DNA of 64,000 bases, from positions 4,216,001 through 4,280,000 of the forward strand of contig NZ_KB907307.1 of assembly GCF_000381925.1 (NCBI RefSeq), given 5' to 3'. Below are positions 50,946 to 61,024 of this stretch, piece after piece (the first letter of the stretch is position 1; the number at the start of each line of letters is the position of its first letter). A program made the position numbers and the translations under genes. The stretch is from Nocardia sp. BMG111209. Lineage in GTDB: Bacteria > Actinomycetota > Actinomycetes > Mycobacteriales > Mycobacteriaceae. A model generated the notes under the pieces. That model did no database searches and was not told where the DNA came from. It worked only from the letters and a program-made list of their open reading frames with translations.

Positions 50946-51995
50946 TCACTGCGGACGATACGGCGGAACCTCCCCGTACGGACCACCCGGCGGCGGATAG
51001 CCCGGCGGTGCGCCCGTGAACCGTACGGGCGCAGGCGCGCTGGGGCGCAGGAACAACTTGCCGTGGCGGCTGCGATCGCGCAGTGCCCACATGCGCCAGG
51101 TCAGCACCGGATGCGAGGCCATCGCATTGACGACCCAGATGAAGAATCCCTTCTCCCGGGGTGCGCGGTCGGCCATCTCGTCGAACTGCACGAGGCTGTT
51201 CAGGTATTTGCCGGCGGCCAGCGTCCGCATCGCGCCGGGGGCGCCGACGTGCCGGTTGCAGTACCCGTGATTGTCGGCGGTGTACTCCTGCGCGCGGATC
51301 AATGAGGAGCCGAGCAGCGGCAGGAACGGCCCGACGAACATGCCCAGTTGCCGCCAGTACGAGACGTGCCCGGCGGCGATGTGACCGACCTCGTGGCCGA
51401 TGATGAACGCCAGCGCATCGGGATCGCGCGCCGCGCCGCCCACCTCGAACAGATCGCTGTAGACACAGACGTACCGGCGGAAACCGTGACCGGAGGCGAA
51501 GGCGTTGATCTGCCCGTTGCCCAGCACCACATAGGCATCGGGCACCTTCGCCATCCCGAACCGCCCGGCCGCCTCCACCACCAGCCGATAGCCCTCCGGG
51601 AACTGGGTCGGCGACATCTGCACGGCGTTCAGGCGCTGCTGCGAATAGTTCATGCCACGACCCGCCCACAACAGCACCGGCGCGAACAACAGCAGCAGAC
51701 CGTACTGATCGATGTGGCCGTAGAACGCCAGCAGGATCACGACCAGATACGCCAGGATCGTCACCACGATCACCACCACCAGCAGCGGGATCTCCCAGCT
51801 GTGCCGGGCCGGCATCCCGAACGGCGACAACCCGCGTTCCCGCTGGTGCGGCGGGATCTGCGGTGGCGCGTAGGGCTGTTGCGGCGCCCAGCCCGGCGGT
51901 CCCAGCCGAGGATCCCAGCCGGTCATCCCGGTGACGGGATTCCAGCCCGGTGGTGGCGGCGGTACGGCCGGTGGACGCCAGTGCTCGTCGGACAT
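50946..51995 (-). CDS. M48 family membrane zinc metalloprotease
   Basis: 349 residues. A Pro/Gly/Trp-rich cytosolic N-terminus (about 60 residues) is followed by two membrane helices (IPLLVVVIVVTILAYLVVILLAF and a LLLLFAPVLLWAG segment) and the peptidase domain. The zinc motif HEVGH is at about 199-203 with the third ligand in the EYTADNHGY region (Glu). Family members degrade membrane proteins (HtpX) or process envelope proteins. The C-terminal Pro-rich end is low complexity. ATG at 51995. Confidence 0.87.
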   Translation of the reverse strand: MSDEHWRPPAVPPPPPGWNPVTGMTGWDPRLGPPGWAPQQPYAPPQIPPHQRERGLSPFGMPARHSWEIPLLVVVIVVTILAYLVVILLAFYGHIDQYGLLLLFAPVLLWAGRGMNYSQQRLNAVQMSPTQFPEGYRLVVEAAGRFGMAKVPDAYVVLGNGQINAFASGHGFRRYVCVYSDLFEVGGAARDPDALAFIIGHEVGHIAAGHVSYWRQLGMFVGPFLPLLGSSLIRAQEYTADNHGYCNRHVGAPGAMRTLAAGKYLNSLVQFDEMADRAPREKGFFIWVVNAMASHPVLTWRMWALRDRSRHGKLFLRPSAPAPVRFTGAPPGYPPPGGPYGEVPPYRPQ

Positions 51996-52074
51996 GATCT
52001 CGACTCTATCGAGGGTCGCGAAGCCGTGATCCCGCGGCGAATGTCGTGTCGGACGCCTGACACAATCGGTACCC

Positions 52075-52545
52075 ATGCGCGTATACCTGGGTGCCGACCA
52101 TGCCGGCTTCGAGCTGAAGAACAACGTCAAGGATCATCTGCAGCGCGCGGGCCACGACGTATTCGATTGCGGTGCACACGAATACGACGCCCTGGACGAT
52201 TATCCGGCCTTCTGCATCGATGCCGCGCGGCGCGTGGTCGCGGACGAGGGCAGCCTCGGCATCGTGATCGGCGGCAGCGGCAACGGCGAGCAGATCGCCG
52301 CCAACAAGGTCCCCGGCGCCCGCTGCGCGCTGGCCTGGAGCGTCGAGACCGCGCGACTGGCCCGCCAGCACAACAACGCCCAACTGATGGGCATCGGCGG
52401 CCGGATGCACAGCACCGAGGACGCGCTGCAGATCGTCGACGCCTTCCTGGCCACCCCGTGGTCGGGCGAGGAGCGGCACCAGCGGCGCATCGATATCCTC
52501 GCCGACTACGAGAAGACGGGCGTGGCACCGGTCGTCCCGAGCTGA
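52075..52545 (+). CDS. rpiB: Ribose-5-phosphate isomerase B
   Basis: 156 residues of the RpiB/LacAB fold: MRVYLGADHAGFELK, then GIVIGGSGNGEQIAANKVPGARCAL, the actinobacterial phosphate-binding and catalytic segment with Glu in place of the Cys of E. coli RpiB. It interconverts ribulose 5-phosphate and ribose 5-phosphate in the pentose phosphate pathway. Followed five bases later by the Nei gene, as in Rv2465c-Rv2464c. Confidence 0.94.
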   Translation: MRVYLGADHAGFELKNNVKDHLQRAGHDVFDCGAHEYDALDDYPAFCIDAARRVVADEGSLGIVIGGSGNGEQIAANKVPGARCALAWSVETARLARQHNNAQLMGIGGRMHSTEDALQIVDAFLATPWSGEERHQRRIDILADYEKTGVAPVVPS

Positions 52546-52550
52546 TCCGC

Positions 52551-53372
52551 ATGCCGGAAGGGCATACGCTGCATCGCCTGGCACGGCTGCATCACAAGCG
52601 GTTCGCGGGTGGGGTCGTGCGGGTCTCCAGCCCGCAGGGCCGCTTCGCCGACGGCGCGGCGCTGGTGGACGGTCACGTCCTGGTGCGCGCCGAGGCGTGG
52701 GGCAAACATCTGCTGCACCGGTACGAGTCGGGCCTGTTCGTGCACGTCCATCTGGGTCTGTACGGCACCTTCACGGAAACAGCCGGGCCCCTGGGTGATC
52801 CGGTGGGTCAGGTGCGGATGCGGATGATCGGCACCGGCCGCACGGCGGGTCCGCTGTGGGGTACCGATCTGCGCGGCCCCTCCGCCTGCGAGGTCCTGTA
52901 CGGGCCGGAGGTGACCGCGCTCACCGGGCGGCTCGGCCCGGATCCGCTGCGCGCCGACGCCGAGCCGGACCGCGCCTGGCACCGCATCCATCGCTCGGCG
53001 CGTTCGATCGCGGCGCTGCTGATGGATCAGTCGGTCGTCGCCGGCGTCGGGAACGTCTATCGCGCGGAACTGCTGTTCCGCCACCACATCTCACCCCATC
53101 GTCCCGGCCGCGACCTGCACCGCGACGAATGGGACGCGATGTGGACCGACCTCGTCGAGCTCATGCGACTGGGTGTCCGCCGCGGCAAGATCGTCGTCGT
53201 CCGGCCCGAACACGACCGCGGCGCACCCGCTTACGCCGAGGGCAAACCCCGCACCTACGTCTATCGCCGCACCGGCGAACCCTGCCGGATCTGCGGCACC
53301 CCTGTCCGCCACGCTGTACTCGAGGCTCGAAACCTGTTCTGGTGCCCCACTTGTCAACCCGACGGCACGTAG
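52551..53372 (+). CDS. nei: Fpg/Nei family DNA glycosylase/AP lyase (Nei1 type)
   Basis: 273 residues. The mature N-terminus is PEGHTLHR: the Pro2 nucleophile and Glu3 of the family. The helix-two-turn-helix VVAGVGNVYRAELLFRHHISPHR and the zinc finger Cys245-x2-Cys248 ... Cys265-x2-Cys268 are complete. It removes oxidised pyrimidines and nicks the strand. Directly downstream of rpiB, probably co-transcribed. Confidence 0.92.
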   Translation: MPEGHTLHRLARLHHKRFAGGVVRVSSPQGRFADGAALVDGHVLVRAEAWGKHLLHRYESGLFVHVHLGLYGTFTETAGPLGDPVGQVRMRMIGTGRTAGPLWGTDLRGPSACEVLYGPEVTALTGRLGPDPLRADAEPDRAWHRIHRSARSIAALLMDQSVVAGVGNVYRAELLFRHHISPHRPGRDLHRDEWDAMWTDLVELMRLGVRRGKIVVVRPEHDRGAPAYAEGKPRTYVYRRTGEPCRICGTPVRHAVLEARNLFWCPTCQPDGT

Positions 53373-53393
53373 CGGACGGCGTCCGGTGACGGG

Positions 53394-54242
53394 TCAGAAG
53401 CCGCCGTCGAAACCGCCACCGCCGCCGTCGAAACCACCGAAATCGCCACCGCCGCCGAAGCCGCCCGAATCGTATCCGCCGGAGTCGTAACCACCGCCGT
53501 CGTAGCCGCCACCGAAGTCACCGCTGTAGTCGCCGCCGCCGTAGTCTCCCTGGCCCGCGTCGAAGCCGTCCTGATACCCGGTGTCGTAGCCGCCGTCGCC
53601 GTAACCACCCTCGAAACCGGTGGCGCCGTAGGCCACTCCGGACATACCGCTGAACAGGGCGTCGAACAGCAGCACCGAGCCGACGCCCCAGGCGCCAGCG
53701 ACCAGCGCGGTCTTCCACCACGGTTCGGAGTACCAACCGGCCGGGACGGGGCGGCCCGAGACCATACCGCCCGGATAGTAGTTGGGCGTCTGCTGAGTGG
53801 GATTGGGGGACGCTTCGACGCGCCGCCCCTCGAAGTCGATGCTGCGGTCCTCGGTGACCGAGCCGGCCGACCGCTGGCCGTCCAGTTCCGGGATCGCCGG
53901 GCCCGGATCCATGCCCATGGCGGTCCGGGCGGCGCGTACGTAGTAGAGGCCCTCCAGCGCCGACTCCTTCGCGAGTCGAACCTGTGCGACGGTGGTCGCC
54001 TGGTCGATCTGCGATCCGGCGGCGTTCAACCGCTCACCGGCATCGGCGAGGGCCTGCTTGGAGGCCTCGTCGGTCCCGGTCAGGTTGTACACCTGACCGC
54101 CGAGCCGCTCGGTGAGCCGCCGCGCCTCCGCCTTCGCGTCGGCCAGCGCGGTGGCCGCCCGCGTGCGGTTGCCCCGGCTGACGAAGGTCGTCGCGAGGAA
54201 TACCAGCAGGACGAGAACCAGAAGTATCAGCAGTAGCGCCAC
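53394..54242 (-). CDS. Membrane-anchored coiled-coil protein with Gly/Tyr/Asp/Phe-rich tail
   Basis: 282 residues. A hydrophobic N-terminal anchor (ALLLILLVLVLLVFLATTFV) precedes a helical coiled-coil region (ALADAKAEARRLTERLGG ... IDQATTVAQVRLAKESALEGL). PWWKTALVAGAWGVGSVLLFDALF may be a second membrane segment. The last about 70 residues are almost only Gly, Tyr, Asp, Phe and Ser in GGYDSGG-like units. Similar Streptomyces and Nocardia proteins are labelled DUF1542, but I know no function. GTG start. Confidence 0.7.
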   Translation of the reverse strand: MALLLILLVLVLLVFLATTFVSRGNRTRAATALADAKAEARRLTERLGGQVYNLTGTDEASKQALADAGERLNAAGSQIDQATTVAQVRLAKESALEGLYYVRAARTAMGMDPGPAIPELDGQRSAGSVTEDRSIDFEGRRVEASPNPTQQTPNYYPGGMVSGRPVPAGWYSEPWWKTALVAGAWGVGSVLLFDALFSGMSGVAYGATGFEGGYGDGGYDTGYQDGFDAGQGDYGGGDYSGDFGGGYDGGGYDSGGYDSGGFGGGGDFGGFDGGGGGFDGGF

Positions 54243-54299
54243 GCCGTCCAGAGTACTGCGAGTCCGAATTTCGCCCGGAAATTGCTGAATACCGCCCGC

Positions 54300-55298
54300 T
54301 CATCCCGCCACGGCGGCTCCGTAGCGCAATGCGACGGTCGGCAGGCCGCCGGTCTCGATGTCCTCCTCGTCGTCCTCCACCGGCGCCAGGGCGAACCGGC
54401 GTTTGCCCGCCGTCTTCGCCGAATACATGGCCCGATCGGCGCTGCGCAGCAGGTCGGCGAAGTCACACGCGCGGTTCGCCGGACAGAACGAGGTGCCGAC
54501 GCTGGCCGAGGCCGGGACCGGCCCCACGGCGGTCCGGATCGGCTCGTGCAACGAGGACAGCACCCGCATCGCGGTCTCCCGCAACGTGTTCCGCCAGGCC
54601 GGGAGCGCGACCACGAACTCGTCACCGCCGTACCGGCTGACCACCGCGTCGGCCGGCGCGGCCGAGAGCAGCCGGTGTGAGATCTCCACCAGCACCTCGT
54701 CGCCGACGGCATGGCCGTAGCAGTCGTTGACCTGCTTGAAATCGTCCAGGTCGATCAGCAACAGCCCGACCCCGCGGGACCGGTCGGCCGCCATCGACAA
54801 CACCCGCTCCTGCAACAGCGAGCGATTGGCCAGATCCGTGAGCGCGTCGTGCGTGGCCTCGTGCCGCCACCGGTGCTGCAGGGCGGCGATCTCCTGAACC
54901 CGCACCGACACGGCGGCGTTCAGGTTGCGCTCCTGCAGCGCCAGCGCGCGTTGTTGCAGCGCCTCGGCATAGCTGTCGATGGCGTGGCTGGCCACGAACG
55001 GCCACCGGGTCGCCACCAGCGAACCCGGTTCGCCCGGAGCGAAACCCAGCAACGCACGCGACGCCGGGGCCAGCATCCGGGTCCGTTCGAACGGCTCCTC
55101 CGCCAGCCGCCGCCCGATCGCCCGGGCAGCGGCCACCGGAAACGGTTCCGAACCCGCCAAGGTCAGTAATTCGCCGATCAAGGAGCCGAATCTGCGTTCC
55201 AGCTCCTCGGCCGACGCGGCGATGCCACTACCCGGACGCACGGCACGGGCCCAGTCGCGAGTGGTGGCGGCGATCTGCGTATCGAGCTCGGTACGCAT
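54300..55298 (-). CDS. GGDEF domain protein, probable diguanylate cyclase
   Basis: 332 residues. The N-terminal 130 residues are a helical sensory region with no membrane segment, then HDALTDLANRSLLQERV opens the GGDEF domain. DLDDFKQVNDCYGHAVGDEVL is the metal/nucleotide segment and RYGGDEF the active loop at about residue 224. All catalytic residues are kept. It should make cyclic di-GMP. Its regulatory input is unknown. Confidence 0.9.
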   Translation of the reverse strand: MRTELDTQIAATTRDWARAVRPGSGIAASAEELERRFGSLIGELLTLAGSEPFPVAAARAIGRRLAEEPFERTRMLAPASRALLGFAPGEPGSLVATRWPFVASHAIDSYAEALQQRALALQERNLNAAVSVRVQEIAALQHRWRHEATHDALTDLANRSLLQERVLSMAADRSRGVGLLLIDLDDFKQVNDCYGHAVGDEVLVEISHRLLSAAPADAVVSRYGGDEFVVALPAWRNTLRETAMRVLSSLHEPIRTAVGPVPASASVGTSFCPANRACDFADLLRSADRAMYSAKTAGKRRFALAPVEDDEEDIETGGLPTVALRYGAAVAG

Positions 55299-55738
55299 GG
55301 CCCCTCACCCCGCGCAGACGATGCCGGTGCCGGCCCTCCGGCCGGTCACGCCCTCCCGGTCGTGCTCACTGTCATGCGGTACGGCACACCTTGTTCGGCG
55401 CACGCTCACCGCCCCCTTTCCAGATACCCCCGTCCGGCAAAAAGGATCCTAGCAAGCCACCCGGTGTCGAAAAATGCTGTTTCACAGCCTGTTCGGCACC
55501 TCGCGAATGGCGATTCGCCGATGAGATCGTGACAGCCGACCTGGCGTTACAGGGTTCTTGAGCGTGTCGCAGCGCGCCACGCCGGAAAACAATCGAACCG
55601 GACACAACCCCCGCCACAATTGCCCGCTTCACCCGTTCCCACCCGTCACGGCCAGGTCGATTGGCGTTCGGTGAGTGACGTTCGGTACAGTCTCAGGCGC
55701 AGACGACATCGTGGCGATCCCATCGGTGTCGGATGCGC
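55299..55738. other. Intergenic, 440 bp, before the tRNA pair
   Basis: No gene seen. It holds the GGDEF 5' region, a small dyad GCGAAT-GGCG-ATTCGC at 55502-55517, and, before the tRNAs, a weak promoter-like TTGGCG (55661) / TACAGT (55686). Confidence 0.4.
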
Positions 55739-55809
<71 letters not shown>

Positions 55810-55855
55810 CTGGTGGGACCGTCAGTCGTCCCCCGGGACGCTCCGGCCCACCCCC

Positions 55856-55929
55856 CGGGATGTAGCGCAGCTTGGTAGCGCATCCGCTTTGGGAGCGGAG
55901 GGTCGCAGGTTCAAATCCTGTCATCCCGA
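55856..55929 (+). tRNA. tRNA-Pro(UGG)
   Basis: 74 bases. The acceptor stem CGGGATG/CATCCCG is perfect, the anticodon stem TCCGC/GCGGA carries loop TTTGGGA with anticodon TGG at 55890-55892, and the T-arm has GGTTCAAATCC. CCA is not encoded. It lies 70 bases before the end of the caspase-NTPase gene. Confidence 0.95.
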
Positions 55930-55998
55930 CTCGGCCGGGCCACCGGAGTTCACCCGGATGGCTGTCCGGCCTCGTCGATGATCCATTGTCCGTGCGGT

Positions 55999-58788
55999 TC
56001 ACTGCCCGGCTCCGGTCAGTTTTATGACGCTCACCGGATTCCCGTTGTTGTCGGCATAGATCAGCAGTGCGTCGTATTCGGAGCCGGCTTGTACCGGGGT
56101 GAAGCCGATGCTGATCGTGCAGGGCGTGTCGTAATGACCCGCTGCGCAGGTCGAGTCCTCCGGGACGACCTTGTAGGCCGCGGAAGTTATCGTCTTGCTG
56201 AAAATGCACTGCCGCCAGGTGATGGTGAAGGATTTCTCCGACCTGGTGTGAATCGGGACCGGGCCGAAAGCGAGCGCGGACGGATGCGGGTCGGGTACGC
56301 AGGGACCCGGTGGTGGCGTCGTAGTCGTAGTCGTCGTGGTGGTCGTCGTGGTCTCGGTGACGGTTCTCGTCGATGTCATGAAGATCGGATGTGTGGTGGT
56401 GGTCGTCGATGAGATGATCGGAACCTGTTGCGCCGCATTCCGCGTCGTAGAGATCTCGCTCGAGGCGGTGGGCGGATCCGGTTCCGTCGTTGTGGTCACC
56501 GGTACGACGCGTCCCAGGCCCAATGCCTCGTCCGGTGGTGACGCCGCGATCCATACGGCGATCAGCGCGACCATCAGCAATGTCGCGGCCACGATGGCAA
56601 TACGGCTCACCGCCCGGCTGCCACTCGTTCCGCGGCGGACCTGCAGCCGCTCGATGGTGGCCTCGACCTCGCGGGTGACCGGATGCTCGGAACCCAGGGC
56701 AGCGCCGAATGCCGGCAGCCATGACTGCCACAGTGCGAGCTTGTCACCGGCACTCGCGGTGCCGATGCCCGCGAGGAAGGTCAGTGCGCCGTTGGGATCG
56801 CCGGCCCCGAGATAGTGGTGAATGGCAGCCACCTGCCGGTAGGCCTCGGCATGGGCGGTTCCGGATTGTTGTGCGGCCACCAGGATTGCCAGATGCACGC
56901 GCGATGAGGGCACGCGATGCTGCCCCGTCGCCGTTTCGAGGGACGGTCGGAGCGTGGTGTGCGCGATGCCGAGATGTTCTGCGGGTGAGCCGGGGGCGCG
57001 CCGGCTGATCAGGACGCCGAGGAACACCGCGAGATCTCTGGCCAACGGCGCGTGGAATTCTCGCTCGATCTTCCTCTCTCGCACGAGAAGTAGTGCCGCA
57101 CGGCAGAGGACATCGATCGGCAGGACGGGGCCCGGTGCGGGAGTGTCGAGCAGAACGCTCAGGAAGATGTCGAGCGCCTCGACCGTGGCGGAATTCTCCG
57201 ACAGGTCCAGAGCGCCGCGAGCGATATCGATCCGGTGCCGGACCAGAGCGTCGAGGCTCAGCCGACCCGCGAGCGCGGATTCATCGAGGCGAGGCGCCAC
57301 CTCGACGATCAGCCGGGCCAGCAACCACCCTCCGGGTACCGGCCATGGACGATCGCCGCCGGCCGCGGTCGGATTACCGTCGGCGGGGGTGACAGCGTTC
57401 CACAATGCGGTGAATTCGCGTTCCGGCCAGGGCGCCGACCGTTCGTCGACGACGTGCGCGCTCAGATACTGCCGCACATCGGCTTCCGACGGCATCGGCA
57501 CCGCGAAGATTCGCATCCCGGGCACCTGCGGCAGCAGCGGGGCGTCGGTATCGGTGCACGCAGTGGCGACGATCCTGATCTGCTCGTATTCGAGCAGCGC
57601 GGTGAGGGTTTCGATGATCTGCTCGCGCCTGCCCTCCTGAGGATGGTCGAGCCCGTCGACGAGGATTGTGAGCGATGTCCTCGTCACGTCGCGTCGATTC
57701 AGCGCGGTGCGCAGCGGCAGCGGCAGCGGCATGCCGTCGTCGGCCGTGCCCGGACCGTCGGCCGTGGCGTCGTGGGCGCCTGTGAGTTGACGGGCCAGTT
57801 CCGACGTGAAGGTCTCGCGCGTACTGGTTCCGGTCAGGAACACCGCGGCATGCACGGCCTTGGCGCCGGTGTCCGCCAGATACGGTCGCAACAGCAACGC
57901 CAGCAACGTCGACTTGCCACTGCCGCTCGGCCCGATGATGAGTCGCAGGCGCGCACGCGGATGATCGGTGATGTCGTCGAGGAGATCGCGCATCGTGTCG
58001 GTGACGACCAGACGCCGGGTCAGGGCATTGACCGTGTCGGAGTCCGGCCTTCTCGACAAGACGTCGACCATCGGCGTGACATTGCGAGCCAGCCACAGAC
58101 CGGGGTCACCGGCGTCGTCCGCGGAACGCTGCCCCAATCCCAATGTCAGGTAGCGGGGCACCTGGTCGCGGCACTGTTCGGCGATCGGTCCCGCCAGGTT
58201 CGACACCGAGATGTCGACACCCTTGCCCGGGAGACCGGTGCGGATAGTACCGATCAGTTCTCGGGTGAAGCACCCTCGGTACGCGGCGTCCGCACCCGTG
58301 GCAACGAGAAGTTCGGCCCTTCCGACCGCGGGGGCCAGGATTCCTGTCCAGTCACGGCCGGCGCGCTTCACGACCGTCTCCGTGTGGCAGGTGTCGAGTA
58401 TCAGGATCAGCCCGTCCAGCCCGTTCGAGCCGCCGACCAGTTTCCGGATCGTATCCGGCAGATCCACTCCCGACAGCGGCCGATCGGCATCGGAATCCGC
58501 GCAGAGAAAGAAATAGTCGCCGTCGGCGGTGGTTTCTCCGTGCCCGATGAACGCGAGCAACAGGGTCGCTTGCTCCGCGGATGCGATCCGGACAGCGTCG
58601 GTCAGCCGGCTCTCCAGGTCCTTCGCGGACGGATCGGTGACAACGGTTCTGTCCGGGAGCACCGGATTCCAGTCCCCATATTCCGCGAGCATCGATGCCA
58701 GTTCGGCCGCCAATGGCGCCGGAAATCCCAGACGCTTGCCGGGATCACTACATTCCGATGCGACGACGAGAGCCAGCCGTTTCCCCAC
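55999..58788 (-). CDS. Caspase-like/P-loop NTPase membrane protein with external ASH-like domain
   Basis: 929 residues. Residues 1-230: caspase-type (C14) domain with the dyad His83 in AFIGHGE and Cys134 in ILDTCHTE. Residues 255-640: STAND/NACHT-like NTPase, Walker A GPSGSGKST at 286-294 and Walker B LTILVDGLDH at 373-382, then helical repeats. One membrane span at about 729-750, a Thr-rich stalk with a run of about 12 Thr, and a C-terminal ASH/choice-of-anchor-like beta domain (CTISIGFTPVQAGSEYDALLIYADNNG...LTGAG) with four Cys. Predicted layout: protease and NTPase inside, sensor outside. Next to tRNAs and divergent from a hydrolase. Likely a conflict or programmed-death protein; the trigger is unknown. 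Confidence 0.85.
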   Translation of the reverse strand: MGKRLALVVASECSDPGKRLGFPAPLAAELASMLAEYGDWNPVLPDRTVVTDPSAKDLESRLTDAVRIASAEQATLLLAFIGHGETTADGDYFFLCADSDADRPLSGVDLPDTIRKLVGGSNGLDGLILILDTCHTETVVKRAGRDWTGILAPAVGRAELLVATGADAAYRGCFTRELIGTIRTGLPGKGVDISVSNLAGPIAEQCRDQVPRYLTLGLGQRSADDAGDPGLWLARNVTPMVDVLSRRPDSDTVNALTRRLVVTDTMRDLLDDITDHPRARLRLIIGPSGSGKSTLLALLLRPYLADTGAKAVHAAVFLTGTSTRETFTSELARQLTGAHDATADGPGTADDGMPLPLPLRTALNRRDVTRTSLTILVDGLDHPQEGRREQIIETLTALLEYEQIRIVATACTDTDAPLLPQVPGMRIFAVPMPSEADVRQYLSAHVVDERSAPWPEREFTALWNAVTPADGNPTAAGGDRPWPVPGGWLLARLIVEVAPRLDESALAGRLSLDALVRHRIDIARGALDLSENSATVEALDIFLSVLLDTPAPGPVLPIDVLCRAALLLVRERKIEREFHAPLARDLAVFLGVLISRRAPGSPAEHLGIAHTTLRPSLETATGQHRVPSSRVHLAILVAAQQSGTAHAEAYRQVAAIHHYLGAGDPNGALTFLAGIGTASAGDKLALWQSWLPAFGAALGSEHPVTREVEATIERLQVRRGTSGSRAVSRIAIVAATLLMVALIAVWIAASPPDEALGLGRVVPVTTTTEPDPPTASSEISTTRNAAQQVPIISSTTTTTHPIFMTSTRTVTETTTTTTTTTTTTPPPGPCVPDPHPSALAFGPVPIHTRSEKSFTITWRQCIFSKTITSAAYKVVPEDSTCAAGHYDTPCTISIGFTPVQAGSEYDALLIYADNNGNPVSVIKLTGAGQ

Positions 58789-59214
58789 TCCGTAATCCTA
58801 CGGTCGCACAGCCTCCCCGTCCTGTCGAATATCACCGTAATCCGGCCGGAGTACAGATGGTCCCATTCGAGTTCATACGAGTCCTTACAGGATGATTTAC
58901 TTGCCTTTCAGATACGAAAACGTTCCTCATCGGACGAACTCACAACCGGTATGTCCGGTGCCTGCGGACAACCTATACGAAGCGGCCGTTCGTTAGTATT
59001 TCACGGTAACAACCGACCGGTGTGTATTCATAACCACTCCGGTGAACATGTGCGGATCGAAGCATCGACCGAGGCGATTTCCGATTGCGGTTCGAATTGC
59101 GCGTCCTGTGAACAGAATGCAAACGTACCCGCGAATCGAGACAGGGCAGTGTGCATCGTGCGAGAATGTTCGCCGGATGTTGTCAGACGAATCCGATCAG
59201 CACGGGGGTGGGTC
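58789..59214. other. Lower-GC divergent promoter region of the caspase/hydrolase pair
   Basis: 426 bases, visibly poorer in GC than neighbours, with AT-rich patches (GATGATTTACTTGCC at 58892, TTAGTATTTCACGG near 58994, TGTATTCATAACC near 59022). It must hold both promoters. In the frame of the hydrolase a GTG at 59158 could extend that protein by 19 residues. Confidence 0.5.
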
Positions 59215-60147
59215 TTGGCCACGATCGTTCTGGTACACGGCATCGCACAGTCCCAGAAAAGCGCAGATGCGCTCGAAAAGGATTGGATCCCGGATCTGGC
59301 AGGCGGCGTTCGCAATGCCGGAGCACCCGAACTCGCCGACCGGATCTGGCGGCAGAGCAGGCCCGGCGATCTCGAAACCAGAATGGCCTTCTACGGTGAT
59401 ATCTATCTCGATCCAGGCGCGCAAGGAGACAGCGGTTCGACCGGCCTCGGCGACGGCGGGATCGACCTCACCGAAAAACTCGCACTGGCCTGGCTGACCG
59501 AGGCGGCGAGGCGCGCCGGCGACCGACGAGATCGCCAGGATGCCGAACGCGAGTTGAACCTCCTCAGCGCGCCTCCCACAGGCGCCCAGGGGCGTGGCGC
59601 AGTCCTGCGGCCGGCGGCCCGAGCACTGTCCCGGCTACGGTGGTTCGCACCGTTCGGTATCGCCACCGCCGAGAAATTCGTATTCAAGGCCCTGGGTGAG
59701 GTCACCGGATACCTCACCGACGACAAGATCCGCGAGTACGCCCAGCAGCGGGTCCTGGGCCTGATCAGCTCCGAAACCCGCCTGGTGATCGCCCATTCCC
59801 TCGGCTCGGTCGTGGCCTACGAAGCGCTGCACCGCACCGACCGGCCGGTCACCTTCGTCACCCTGGGCTCGCCGCTCGGGTTGCGAAGCATCGTGTACCC
59901 GAAGCTGCGGCCACAGCCTCCGACCGTCCCCTCGTCGATGACCCGCTGGTACAACATTGCCGACCGGGACGACCTCGTCGCCACGGAACTCGATCTCGAC
60001 TTCGAACCCGTCGCGGGCCACACCACCAAGCCCGAAACCATCGACACGATCGACAACGGCTCCAGCCCGCACGACGCCGCCCGGTACCTGACGAAGCGGA
60101 CCCTCGGCGCGATCGTCGTCCGAGCGCTGGAGGGCACCGGCCACTAG
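59215..60147 (+). CDS. Serine alpha/beta-hydrolase paired with the caspase protein
   Basis: 310 residues from a TTG preceded by GGGGGTGGG. ATIVLVHGIAQSQKSADALEKDW is the first strand and oxyanion HG (His8-Gly9). The nucleophile elbow is AHSLGS with Ser195, and His286 in SSPHDAARY is the likely catalytic His. An acidic residue in NIADRDDLVATELD may complete the triad. There is no signal peptide, so it is cytosolic. A lipase or esterase role is possible. The long open frame upstream runs antisense through the caspase gene and is not coding. Divergent from the caspase gene; its stop is one base from the convergent RNA ligase. Confidence 0.8.
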   Translation: MATIVLVHGIAQSQKSADALEKDWIPDLAGGVRNAGAPELADRIWRQSRPGDLETRMAFYGDIYLDPGAQGDSGSTGLGDGGIDLTEKLALAWLTEAARRAGDRRDRQDAERELNLLSAPPTGAQGRGAVLRPAARALSRLRWFAPFGIATAEKFVFKALGEVTGYLTDDKIREYAQQRVLGLISSETRLVIAHSLGSVVAYEALHRTDRPVTFVTLGSPLGLRSIVYPKLRPQPPTVPSSMTRWYNIADRDDLVATELDLDFEPVAGHTTKPETIDTIDNGSSPHDAARYLTKRTLGAIVVRALEGTGH

Positions 60148-60148
60148 C

Positions 60149-60919
60149 TCAGGCCGTGCGGCGGCGGAGGGTGCGGTCGTAGTCCTCGAAACGGGCCTTG
60201 GCGATCGTGGCGCGGTCGGGGGTGCGCAGGACGATGCCCTCCGGGTGGCCGCCGCCGGCGGCGTCGAGCCGGCAGCGGGTCTCCGGCAACCGCTCGCCCA
60301 GGAATTCGCGCATCGCGCCGATGTCGGTCGGCAGTTCGGCGGCGTCCAGCGTGAACAGGCGGGGCGTGAGTTGCAGGCCGAAATCGGTTGCGGTGGTGGT
60401 CAATTCCGGCTCGGCGGCGAAGGGTTGACCGCCCGACTCGCGCCAGGCGGAGATCTCCGCGAGCGGGCGGGTGAACAGGTTCGCCCATTCGCGCAGTACC
60501 ACCATGTCGAACAGGCGGAATCCGACCGCGCGTTCGCCGGTGTACTGCTTGCTCGCGGCGGTGACCTTGCCGCCGAACAACTCCAGGTACAGCACGCGCA
60601 CCACGCCGTCGGCCGGGGGCATGGCGTCGGCCAGGTCGCGTAGGGCCGACACGATGCCCTGGGCCGGGTTGCCGATGAGATCGCCTCGGGCACAGAGCAG
60701 TTCCTCGCGGCTGCCGAGCAGCCAGGAGCCGTCGGGCAGGGCGATGATCCGGGAGTTGGTGCCGTCGACCTTCTCCGTGCCCAGTACCGGGCCGCGGAAC
60801 TCGACGACGGCGCCGGTCAGCGATCCGCGTTCGCCGAGTCCGTGGTAGGTCGGGATCGAGGGGTACTTGGTGGCGCTGTTGATCGCGTCGAGGTCGGCGG
60901 TGCGCAGGTCGAAATCCAC
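60149..60919 (-). CDS. RNA ligase family protein
   Basis: 256 residues of the nucleotidyltransferase (RNA ligase) fold. Motif I is Lys50 in TEKVDGTNSR; motif III-type segments are RLFDMVVL and VLYLELFGG; motif IV is PEGIVLRT; motif V is AKARFEDYDRTLRR. All residues needed for the lysyl-AMP step look present. It has no added kinase or phosphatase domain, so it would need 5'-phosphate/3'-OH ends, for instance after Pnkp. Convergent with the hydrolase. The GTG start has only a weak ribosome site. Confidence 0.82.
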   Translation of the reverse strand: MDFDLRTADLDAINSATKYPSIPTYHGLGERGSLTGAVVEFRGPVLGTEKVDGTNSRIIALPDGSWLLGSREELLCARGDLIGNPAQGIVSALRDLADAMPPADGVVRVLYLELFGGKVTAASKQYTGERAVGFRLFDMVVLREWANLFTRPLAEISAWRESGGQPFAAEPELTTTATDFGLQLTPRLFTLDAAELPTDIGAMREFLGERLPETRCRLDAAGGGHPEGIVLRTPDRATIAKARFEDYDRTLRRRTA

Positions 60920-61024
60920 TCGCTCATGGTCGCGGGCGACGAGCCGGGCCGTCCATCGAATTTCGCTGGGGCCCAGCGCCGTCCGGCTCGCATCCGGCGT
61001 GGATGCGAGCCACCGCGGTGCGGG

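Follow-up and report, generated by a model that had tools for sequence, protein, structure and literature searches.

In a 64,000-nucleotide stretch of the genome of Nocardia sp. BMG111209 (contig NZ_KB907307.1, positions 4,216,001 to 4,280,000; hereafter the window), a gene encoding a receptor with caspase and NTPase domains lies divergently from a gene encoding an alpha/beta hydrolase. The pairing is shown by sequence, predicted fold and comparison: caspase gene and hydrolase gene are a conserved unit, and the two proteins are almost certainly functional partners. An initial annotation of the window had combined both with an RNA ligase and two tRNAs into a candidate suicide locus. The three open reading frames, their motifs and their coordinates are all present in the sequence, and co-occurrence supports the hydrolase as functional partner of the caspase.

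In 60 related genomes, a strong caspase match (E < 1e-75) occurs in ten, and exactly these ten contain a strong hydrolase match (E < 1e-90). Among 150 Nocardia genomes, the caspase was found in 41 (E <= 1e-20) and a close hydrolase in 40 (E < 1e-80), all of them within these 41. The genes form 14 adjacent pairs in 12 of the Nocardia genomes (13 divergent, one convergent); elsewhere the hydrolase is unlinked, in six relatives at one shared locus. In Amycolatopsis (80 genomes, taken irrespective of completeness and kinship), caspase and close hydrolase were found in the same 25 genomes, adjacent and divergent in 25 of 25. In a sample of 394 genomes of the class, the sole other caspase match is located in the genome with the second-best hydrolase (Frankia sp. 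QA3, in tandem), the class-wide count of 2/394 being a lower bound, as two candidates were scored per genome. A protein matching the caspase profile was present in 16 of the 20 loci around hydrolases of the class sample and the relatives, with a profile whose iterations had included these proteins.

Hydrolase loci occur in Actinomycetota, Pseudomonadota, Acidobacteriota and one cyanobacterial metagenome-assembled genome; several of the non-actinobacterial loci are from such assemblies and possibly misbinned; Duganella sacchari is recorded as a strain. For 79 loci, identified with hydrolase patterns in named genomes of several phyla, a caspase was detected in the examined flanks of 56. Together with the co-occurrence in Nocardia and Amycolatopsis, this count runs counter to the condition set by the initial annotation for its own refutation, namely that homologues of the two proteins are rarely neighbours. 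The linked genes are divergent in 31 cases, convergent in seven and in tandem in the others, with the hydrolase (13) or the caspase (5) first. A tree of 64 hydrolases requires 11 changes of arrangement by parsimony, when "no caspase seen" is counted as one state. Acidobacterial and actinobacterial rows share one well-supported group, with Pseudomonadota among them at weaker support, and the hydrolase of Rhodococcus rhodnii groups with those of Kibdelosporangium and Actinosynnema, a placement as after horizontal transfer. On these sequences, repeated rearrangement with the partnership retained is not explained by shared descent. At three distant loci (L106, L108 and L109), hydrolase and caspase-NTPase genes are followed by a further gene for a protein of 1600–1680 amino acids of unknown kind, with at most weak AAA matches.

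That the genes are chance neighbours on a small island, as the absence of a 5.1-kb segment from this site in relatives and the passenger-like RNA ligase might suggest, is hardly credible; it is refuted for caspase and hydrolase by the two genus-wide tests and the four arrangements.

Architecture of the receptor and the hydrolase

According to its models, the receptor is composed of a caspase, a STAND/Apaf-1-type NTPase with a helical arm and a replaceable C-terminal sensor. The predicted folds comprise the caspase at residues 1–240 and the NTPase with its arm at about 244–718, followed by one membrane helix, a stalk and an outer domain. Together with conserved motifs they support the caspase receptor with a STAND-like NTPase proposed initially, in which His83 (IGHG) and Cys134 (DTCHT) are found where the caspase dyad had been placed, GPSGSGKST at residues 286–294 forms the Walker A motif, and one hydrophobic helix (about residues 730–748) precedes a Thr-rich stalk. 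Of 88 near-full-length caspase rows in Nocardia (shorter fragments excluded), 82 were examined, since five were not fetched and one contained an internal stop. Cys134, Asp132 and Lys292 are each conserved in 82/82 and His83 in 81/82. An Asp preceding the catalytic Cys is a metacaspase feature, and because Asp132 has this position, cleavage after Arg or Lys is suggested. The best caspase model for the receptor is NCBIfam NF047832 (46.6 bits, cut-off 140). PF00656 (C14) was not listed for the window protein and scored above the cut-off in the relatives L208, L200 and L236.

The C-terminal sensor of the 82 Nocardia relatives, classed by motif count, consists of TPR repeats in 65, of a transmembrane (TM) helix with an outer domain in 11, and was unclassed by the rule in six. 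A membrane receptor, as initially proposed, is present in the window, but it represents the minority form. The outward orientation of its C-terminus is plausible, basic residues being commoner before the TM helix than after it in 11/11 TM-type members. The ASH-like nature of the outer domain is weakly indicated: the C-terminus in the window matched Cep192_D4 at 9e-4, below the cut-off, and the AF2 model is of low confidence there; choice_anch_D was matched by two of five other members scanned, also below the cut-off. In a membrane-type caspase of Nocardia arizonensis (L060:7749-8198, minus strand), the stalk is formed by a run of about 50 glutamines instead of the threonines in the window.

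A pathway of filamentous actinobacteria outside immunity, serving housekeeping or envelope sensing, for example in development or cell-wall stress, would be in line with an outer domain that should face the envelope in the window, with a caspase in one conserved gene neighbourhood in eight of nine mapped caspase-bearing relatives, and with PADLOC, which gave no convincing model match for the locus. Such a role is nevertheless quite unlikely in view of the patchy presence (41/150 Nocardia and 25/80 Amycolatopsis genomes), the spread over several phyla, where acidobacterial rows intermingle with actinobacterial ones in the tree, and the swapped sensors.

The hydrolase is predicted to adopt an alpha/beta fold of the esterase/lipase type, with the triad intact and a helical lid (residues 61–181), in a model that is confident almost throughout. 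The previously named nucleophile, Ser195, was confirmed by the GxSxG-type motif HSLGS, and Ser195, Asp253 and His286 are kept in 64/64 hydrolases, with Asp253 as the presumable acid of the triad. The TTG codon at 59215 is the best start, as most homologues start close to it. The protein should be cytosolic, as judged from the model, in which the N-terminus forms the first strand, and from the lack of a signal peptide by eye. The hydrolase profile gave no match at 0.1 against sequences of solved structures. Naming a substrate from the best Foldseek match (DDHD domain of Nir2, 7e-3) was rejected, this match being too weak.

Proposed direction of the signal between caspase and hydrolase

Tentatively, we favour a stand-alone receptor-executor pair, in which a signal passes from the receptor to the caspase, activates the hydrolase and leads via lipid or ester damage to arrest or death. 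A signal at the C-terminal part of the receptor would release the NTPase, and the receptor would oligomerise at the inner membrane, bringing the caspase domains together. The activated caspase would cut or dock on the hydrolase, the lid of which would open, switching on an esterase/lipase-like activity that may damage membrane lipids or another ester, so that the cell would be arrested or killed. Oligomerisation, cleavage, substrate and outcome are steps that we infer.

Since the hydrolase has been brought together with two unrelated protease types, caspase and trypsin-like, a proteolytic step between protease and hydrolase is favoured. In 4/4 long proteins scanned (L033, L034, L036 and L115), distant members of the hydrolase family of about 650–770 amino acids, the hydrolase follows a trypsin-like domain (Pfam Trypsin_2). 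Five more frames (probably L338–L342) resemble these fusions by length and motif only. No description of a trypsin-hydrolase fusion was met in the accessible parts of the literature compared. A 1355-amino acid frame in a genome of the genus Amycolatopsis (L345:878-4942, minus strand) unites hydrolase- and caspase-profile matches, with the key residues of both apparently lost (by eye). The fused matches are followed by a TIR/SEFIR-looking stretch, as seen by eye, and TPR-like repeats. In Nocardia, a frame of 1690 amino acids (L346:101-5170, plus strand) consists of an ATPase-like and repeat region (by eye) with a full-length hydrolase match at its end.

This lone hydrolase-caspase frame, apparently degenerate in both parts, also reads as a scaffold. 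Together with the co-occurrence in any orientation, it would fit parallel effectors, that is, caspase and hydrolase held in one complex under the same receptor and not cleaving each other. This arrangement appears improbable, however, since the repeated joining of the hydrolase to two unrelated protease types suggests a proteolytic step and none of the 81 caspases examined from Nocardia genomes that have the hydrolase has lost its dyad.

The hydrolase might, conversely, restrain the caspase, the latter being a toxic effector and the former its antidote or regulator, which could, for example, remove an ester or acyl mark. Two observations speak for such a role. No close hydrolase is found without a caspase in any of the 40 Nocardia genomes, and in one genome the hydrolase is missing and the catalytic His of the caspase is lost as well, as would be expected if an unrestrained caspase were harmful. 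In this genome, G546, alone among the 41 caspase-bearing Nocardia genomes, no hydrolase was detected (E cut-off 1e-15). It has one caspase, in which His83 is replaced by Tyr; the other 81 of the 82 examined keep the histidine. The same His-to-Tyr change is found in P0004 of Nocardia terpenica, which is 91% identical to the G546 caspase. With one genome of 41 lacking the hydrolase, the chance that the two losses coincide is about 1 in 41. From these sequences, the case links the hydrolase with caspase catalysis and does not tell the direction. An antidote is nonetheless unlikely. In Nocardia, where a genome may have up to six near-full-length caspases, the hydrolase is often a single, unlinked copy, unlike a linked antidote; moreover, strict retention of the triad in 64/64 exceeds the needs of a mere inhibitor, and the trypsin-hydrolase fusions do not fit this role.

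Several points weigh against an activation of the hydrolase by the caspase, or against the strength of their pairing. A clear gating loop was not found in the hydrolase model, nor was a strictly conserved basic cleavage site in its loops, where the top position, 132, is K or R in 41/64. No caspase was seen in the examined flanks of 23 of the 79 hydrolase loci (17 in Nocardia, six in others), and nine Nocardia genomes contain only distant hydrolases, without a caspase of this family. Co-occurrence in Nocardia partly reflects shared descent, and all seven relocated hydrolases on the tree fall into a single clade. The histidine loss in G546 was noticed post hoc; it probably happened once in evolution and would suit an antidote equally well.

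Locus context and the RNA ligase

The features of the locus are compiled in Table 1. Neither the RNA ligase nor the tRNAs are part of the conserved unit. The proposed three-gene set is not supported, as a single, fragmentary match to the RNA ligase was obtained in 322 loci. The ligase was rejected as third component, with matches in 4/60 genomes including its own, the others being short or weak. It is an orphan stand-alone RNA ligase with almost no relatives among the 60 genomes searched and, by sequence comparison, does look like a passenger. Its 3' end is separated from that of the convergent hydrolase gene by a single base. The G+C content is 0.66–0.67 for caspase and hydrolase genes, 0.706 for the RNA ligase gene and 0.694 for the whole window. 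The association with tRNAs is not general either: a tRNA was located within 6 kb in 2/56 linked caspase-hydrolase loci.

Table 1. Features of the caspase-hydrolase locus and its immediate flank (window positions)
Feature	Position	Strand	Remarks
tRNA-Gly	55739..55810		
tRNA-Pro	55856..55930		
Segment of about 5.1 kb, not found between tRNA-Pro end and Rv2466c-like gene in mapped relatives	55931..61013		synteny breaks
Caspase-NTPase membrane receptor	55999..58788	-	929 amino acids, GTG start, start agrees with homologues
C-terminal beta domain, weakly ASH/choice-of-anchor-D-like	56002..56241	-	weak profile matches, AF2 model
Thr-rich stalk, residues 753–849, predicted disordered	56242..56532	-	pLDDT under 50
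Membrane helix, residues about 730–748	56545..56601	-	hydropathy 2.79; basic residues richer before than after
STAND-type NTPase and helical arm (predicted), residues about 250–720	56629..58041	-	Walker A 286–294, Asp378
Caspase domain (predicted), residues 1–240	58069..58788	-	His83 codon 58542-58540, Cys134 codon 58389-58387, Asp132 conserved
Divergent intergenic region, AT-richer	58789..59214		G+C 0.538
Esterase/lipase-type alpha/beta hydrolase (predicted)	59215..60147	+	310 amino acids, TTG start
RNA ligase-family gene, passenger outside the conserved pair	60149..60919	-	PF09414, E 5e-12; not conserved

Relatives keep the left flank, up to the tRNA-Pro 3' end at 55930, and the right flank, from about 61013 (Rv2466c-like gene), without the three genes between them, and DNA matches to relatives end near these two positions. 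None of six relatives with gene maps has caspase, hydrolase or ligase genes at this site; the maps of five cover both flanks. In four of these five, the genes for ferredoxin reductase (where the stretch reaches it), Rv2466c-like protein, M48, rpiB, fpg, GGDEF, tRNA-Gly and tRNA-Pro follow in the same order; in G001, the order is partly rearranged. The block from M48 to tRNA-Pro (50946–55930; M48-rpiB-fpg-GGDEF-tRNA-Gly-tRNA-Pro) is inverted in the window compared to most mapped relatives, and the caspase-hydrolase-ligase segment is located at a junction of this block. An integration linked to the tRNA was rejected, the supported part being only the absence of the segment from this site in relatives. 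No integrase was identified among thirteen window genes scanned with Pfam, and no att-like repeat common to tRNA-Pro was reported.

Comparison with known systems

The initial annotation had recognised no named system in this locus. This stands in so far as no stand-alone pair was found described; a pairing of caspase and alpha/beta hydrolase is, however, in print for ternary VMAP/MoxR-vWA conflict systems, as far as the accessible part of the source extends. According to Kaur et al. (2020, PMC7159879), every VMAP protein with a caspase is encoded next to an alpha/beta-hydrolase gene; a caspase with such a neighbour was also found here. The two settings are related, because a hydrolase of the same family in L103 adjoins a caspase whose chain extends into Pfam VMAP-M2 and TPR. 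In contrast to VMAP systems, the caspase here is part of an Apaf-1-like NTPase with a TPR or TM-outer-domain sensor, and the pair is often divergent and stand-alone. The ordered MoxR, vWA and VMAP genes of those systems were not found, as no Pfam match to any of them was obtained in the pair or in ten flanking genes, one of which had no Pfam match at all. New with respect to the known pairing is, on sequence grounds, its stand-alone form, with the caspase within an NLR-like receptor of variable sensor. Searches of the literature, which covered few subscription papers, yielded no paper on a caspase-NTPase/hydrolase pair that stands alone; this does not prove that none has been published. Freed from the VMAP setting, the question of who acts on whom is one of two proteins.

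The two-gene EACC1-caspase system, according to the accessible part of Kaur et al. (2020), likewise has an N-terminal caspase with variable C-terminal parts, some with a TM helix. It differs in that the receptor scores far below the NF047832 cut-off and the partner is a hydrolase instead of a single-TM EACC1 protein. An EACC1 gene 5' of the caspase gene was not found, the divergent hydrolase gene being located there, and no EACC1 family was detected by Pfam (pair and ten flanking genes) or NCBIfam (hydrolase). In the antiphage Canu systems, as described in the accessible portion of the report, a caspase activates a pro-nuclease (PMC12799240). As here, the caspase is linked to a second hydrolytic enzyme, and on that portion Canu is the best experimental precedent for a caspase-activated partner; the partner there is a nuclease of the metallo-beta-lactamase fold, in contrast to the Ser-His-Asp alpha/beta hydrolase, and the architecture is a different one.

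Compared to the Apaf-1/CED-4 apoptosome and to NLRs, receptor and caspase are united in one chain and the sensor is TPR or a TM helix with an outer domain; CARD, unlike in Apaf-1/CED-4, was not listed by Pfam for the pair. The copy numbers, with 88 near-full-length caspases (41 Nocardia genomes) facing 42 close hydrolases (40 genomes), would fit a relation of many receptors to one executor. A Nocardia network of the NLR kind, in which several single-chain Apaf-1-like caspase receptors, cytosolic (TPR) or outside-reading (TM helix and outer domain), converge on one shared pro-esterase executing lipid-based death, is conceivable though doubtful; if it exists, the trypsin fusions would be cases in which the executor was repeatedly put under different proteases. 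By analogy, the pair points to a receptor and executioner resembling animal cell-death machinery. If the activation of the hydrolase by the caspase holds, this would be a pair of two genes spread across phyla and easily reconstituted, and a minimal bacterial counterpart of apoptosome and executioner, in which a lipid or ester hydrolase is the partner of the caspase instead of a nuclease or pore.

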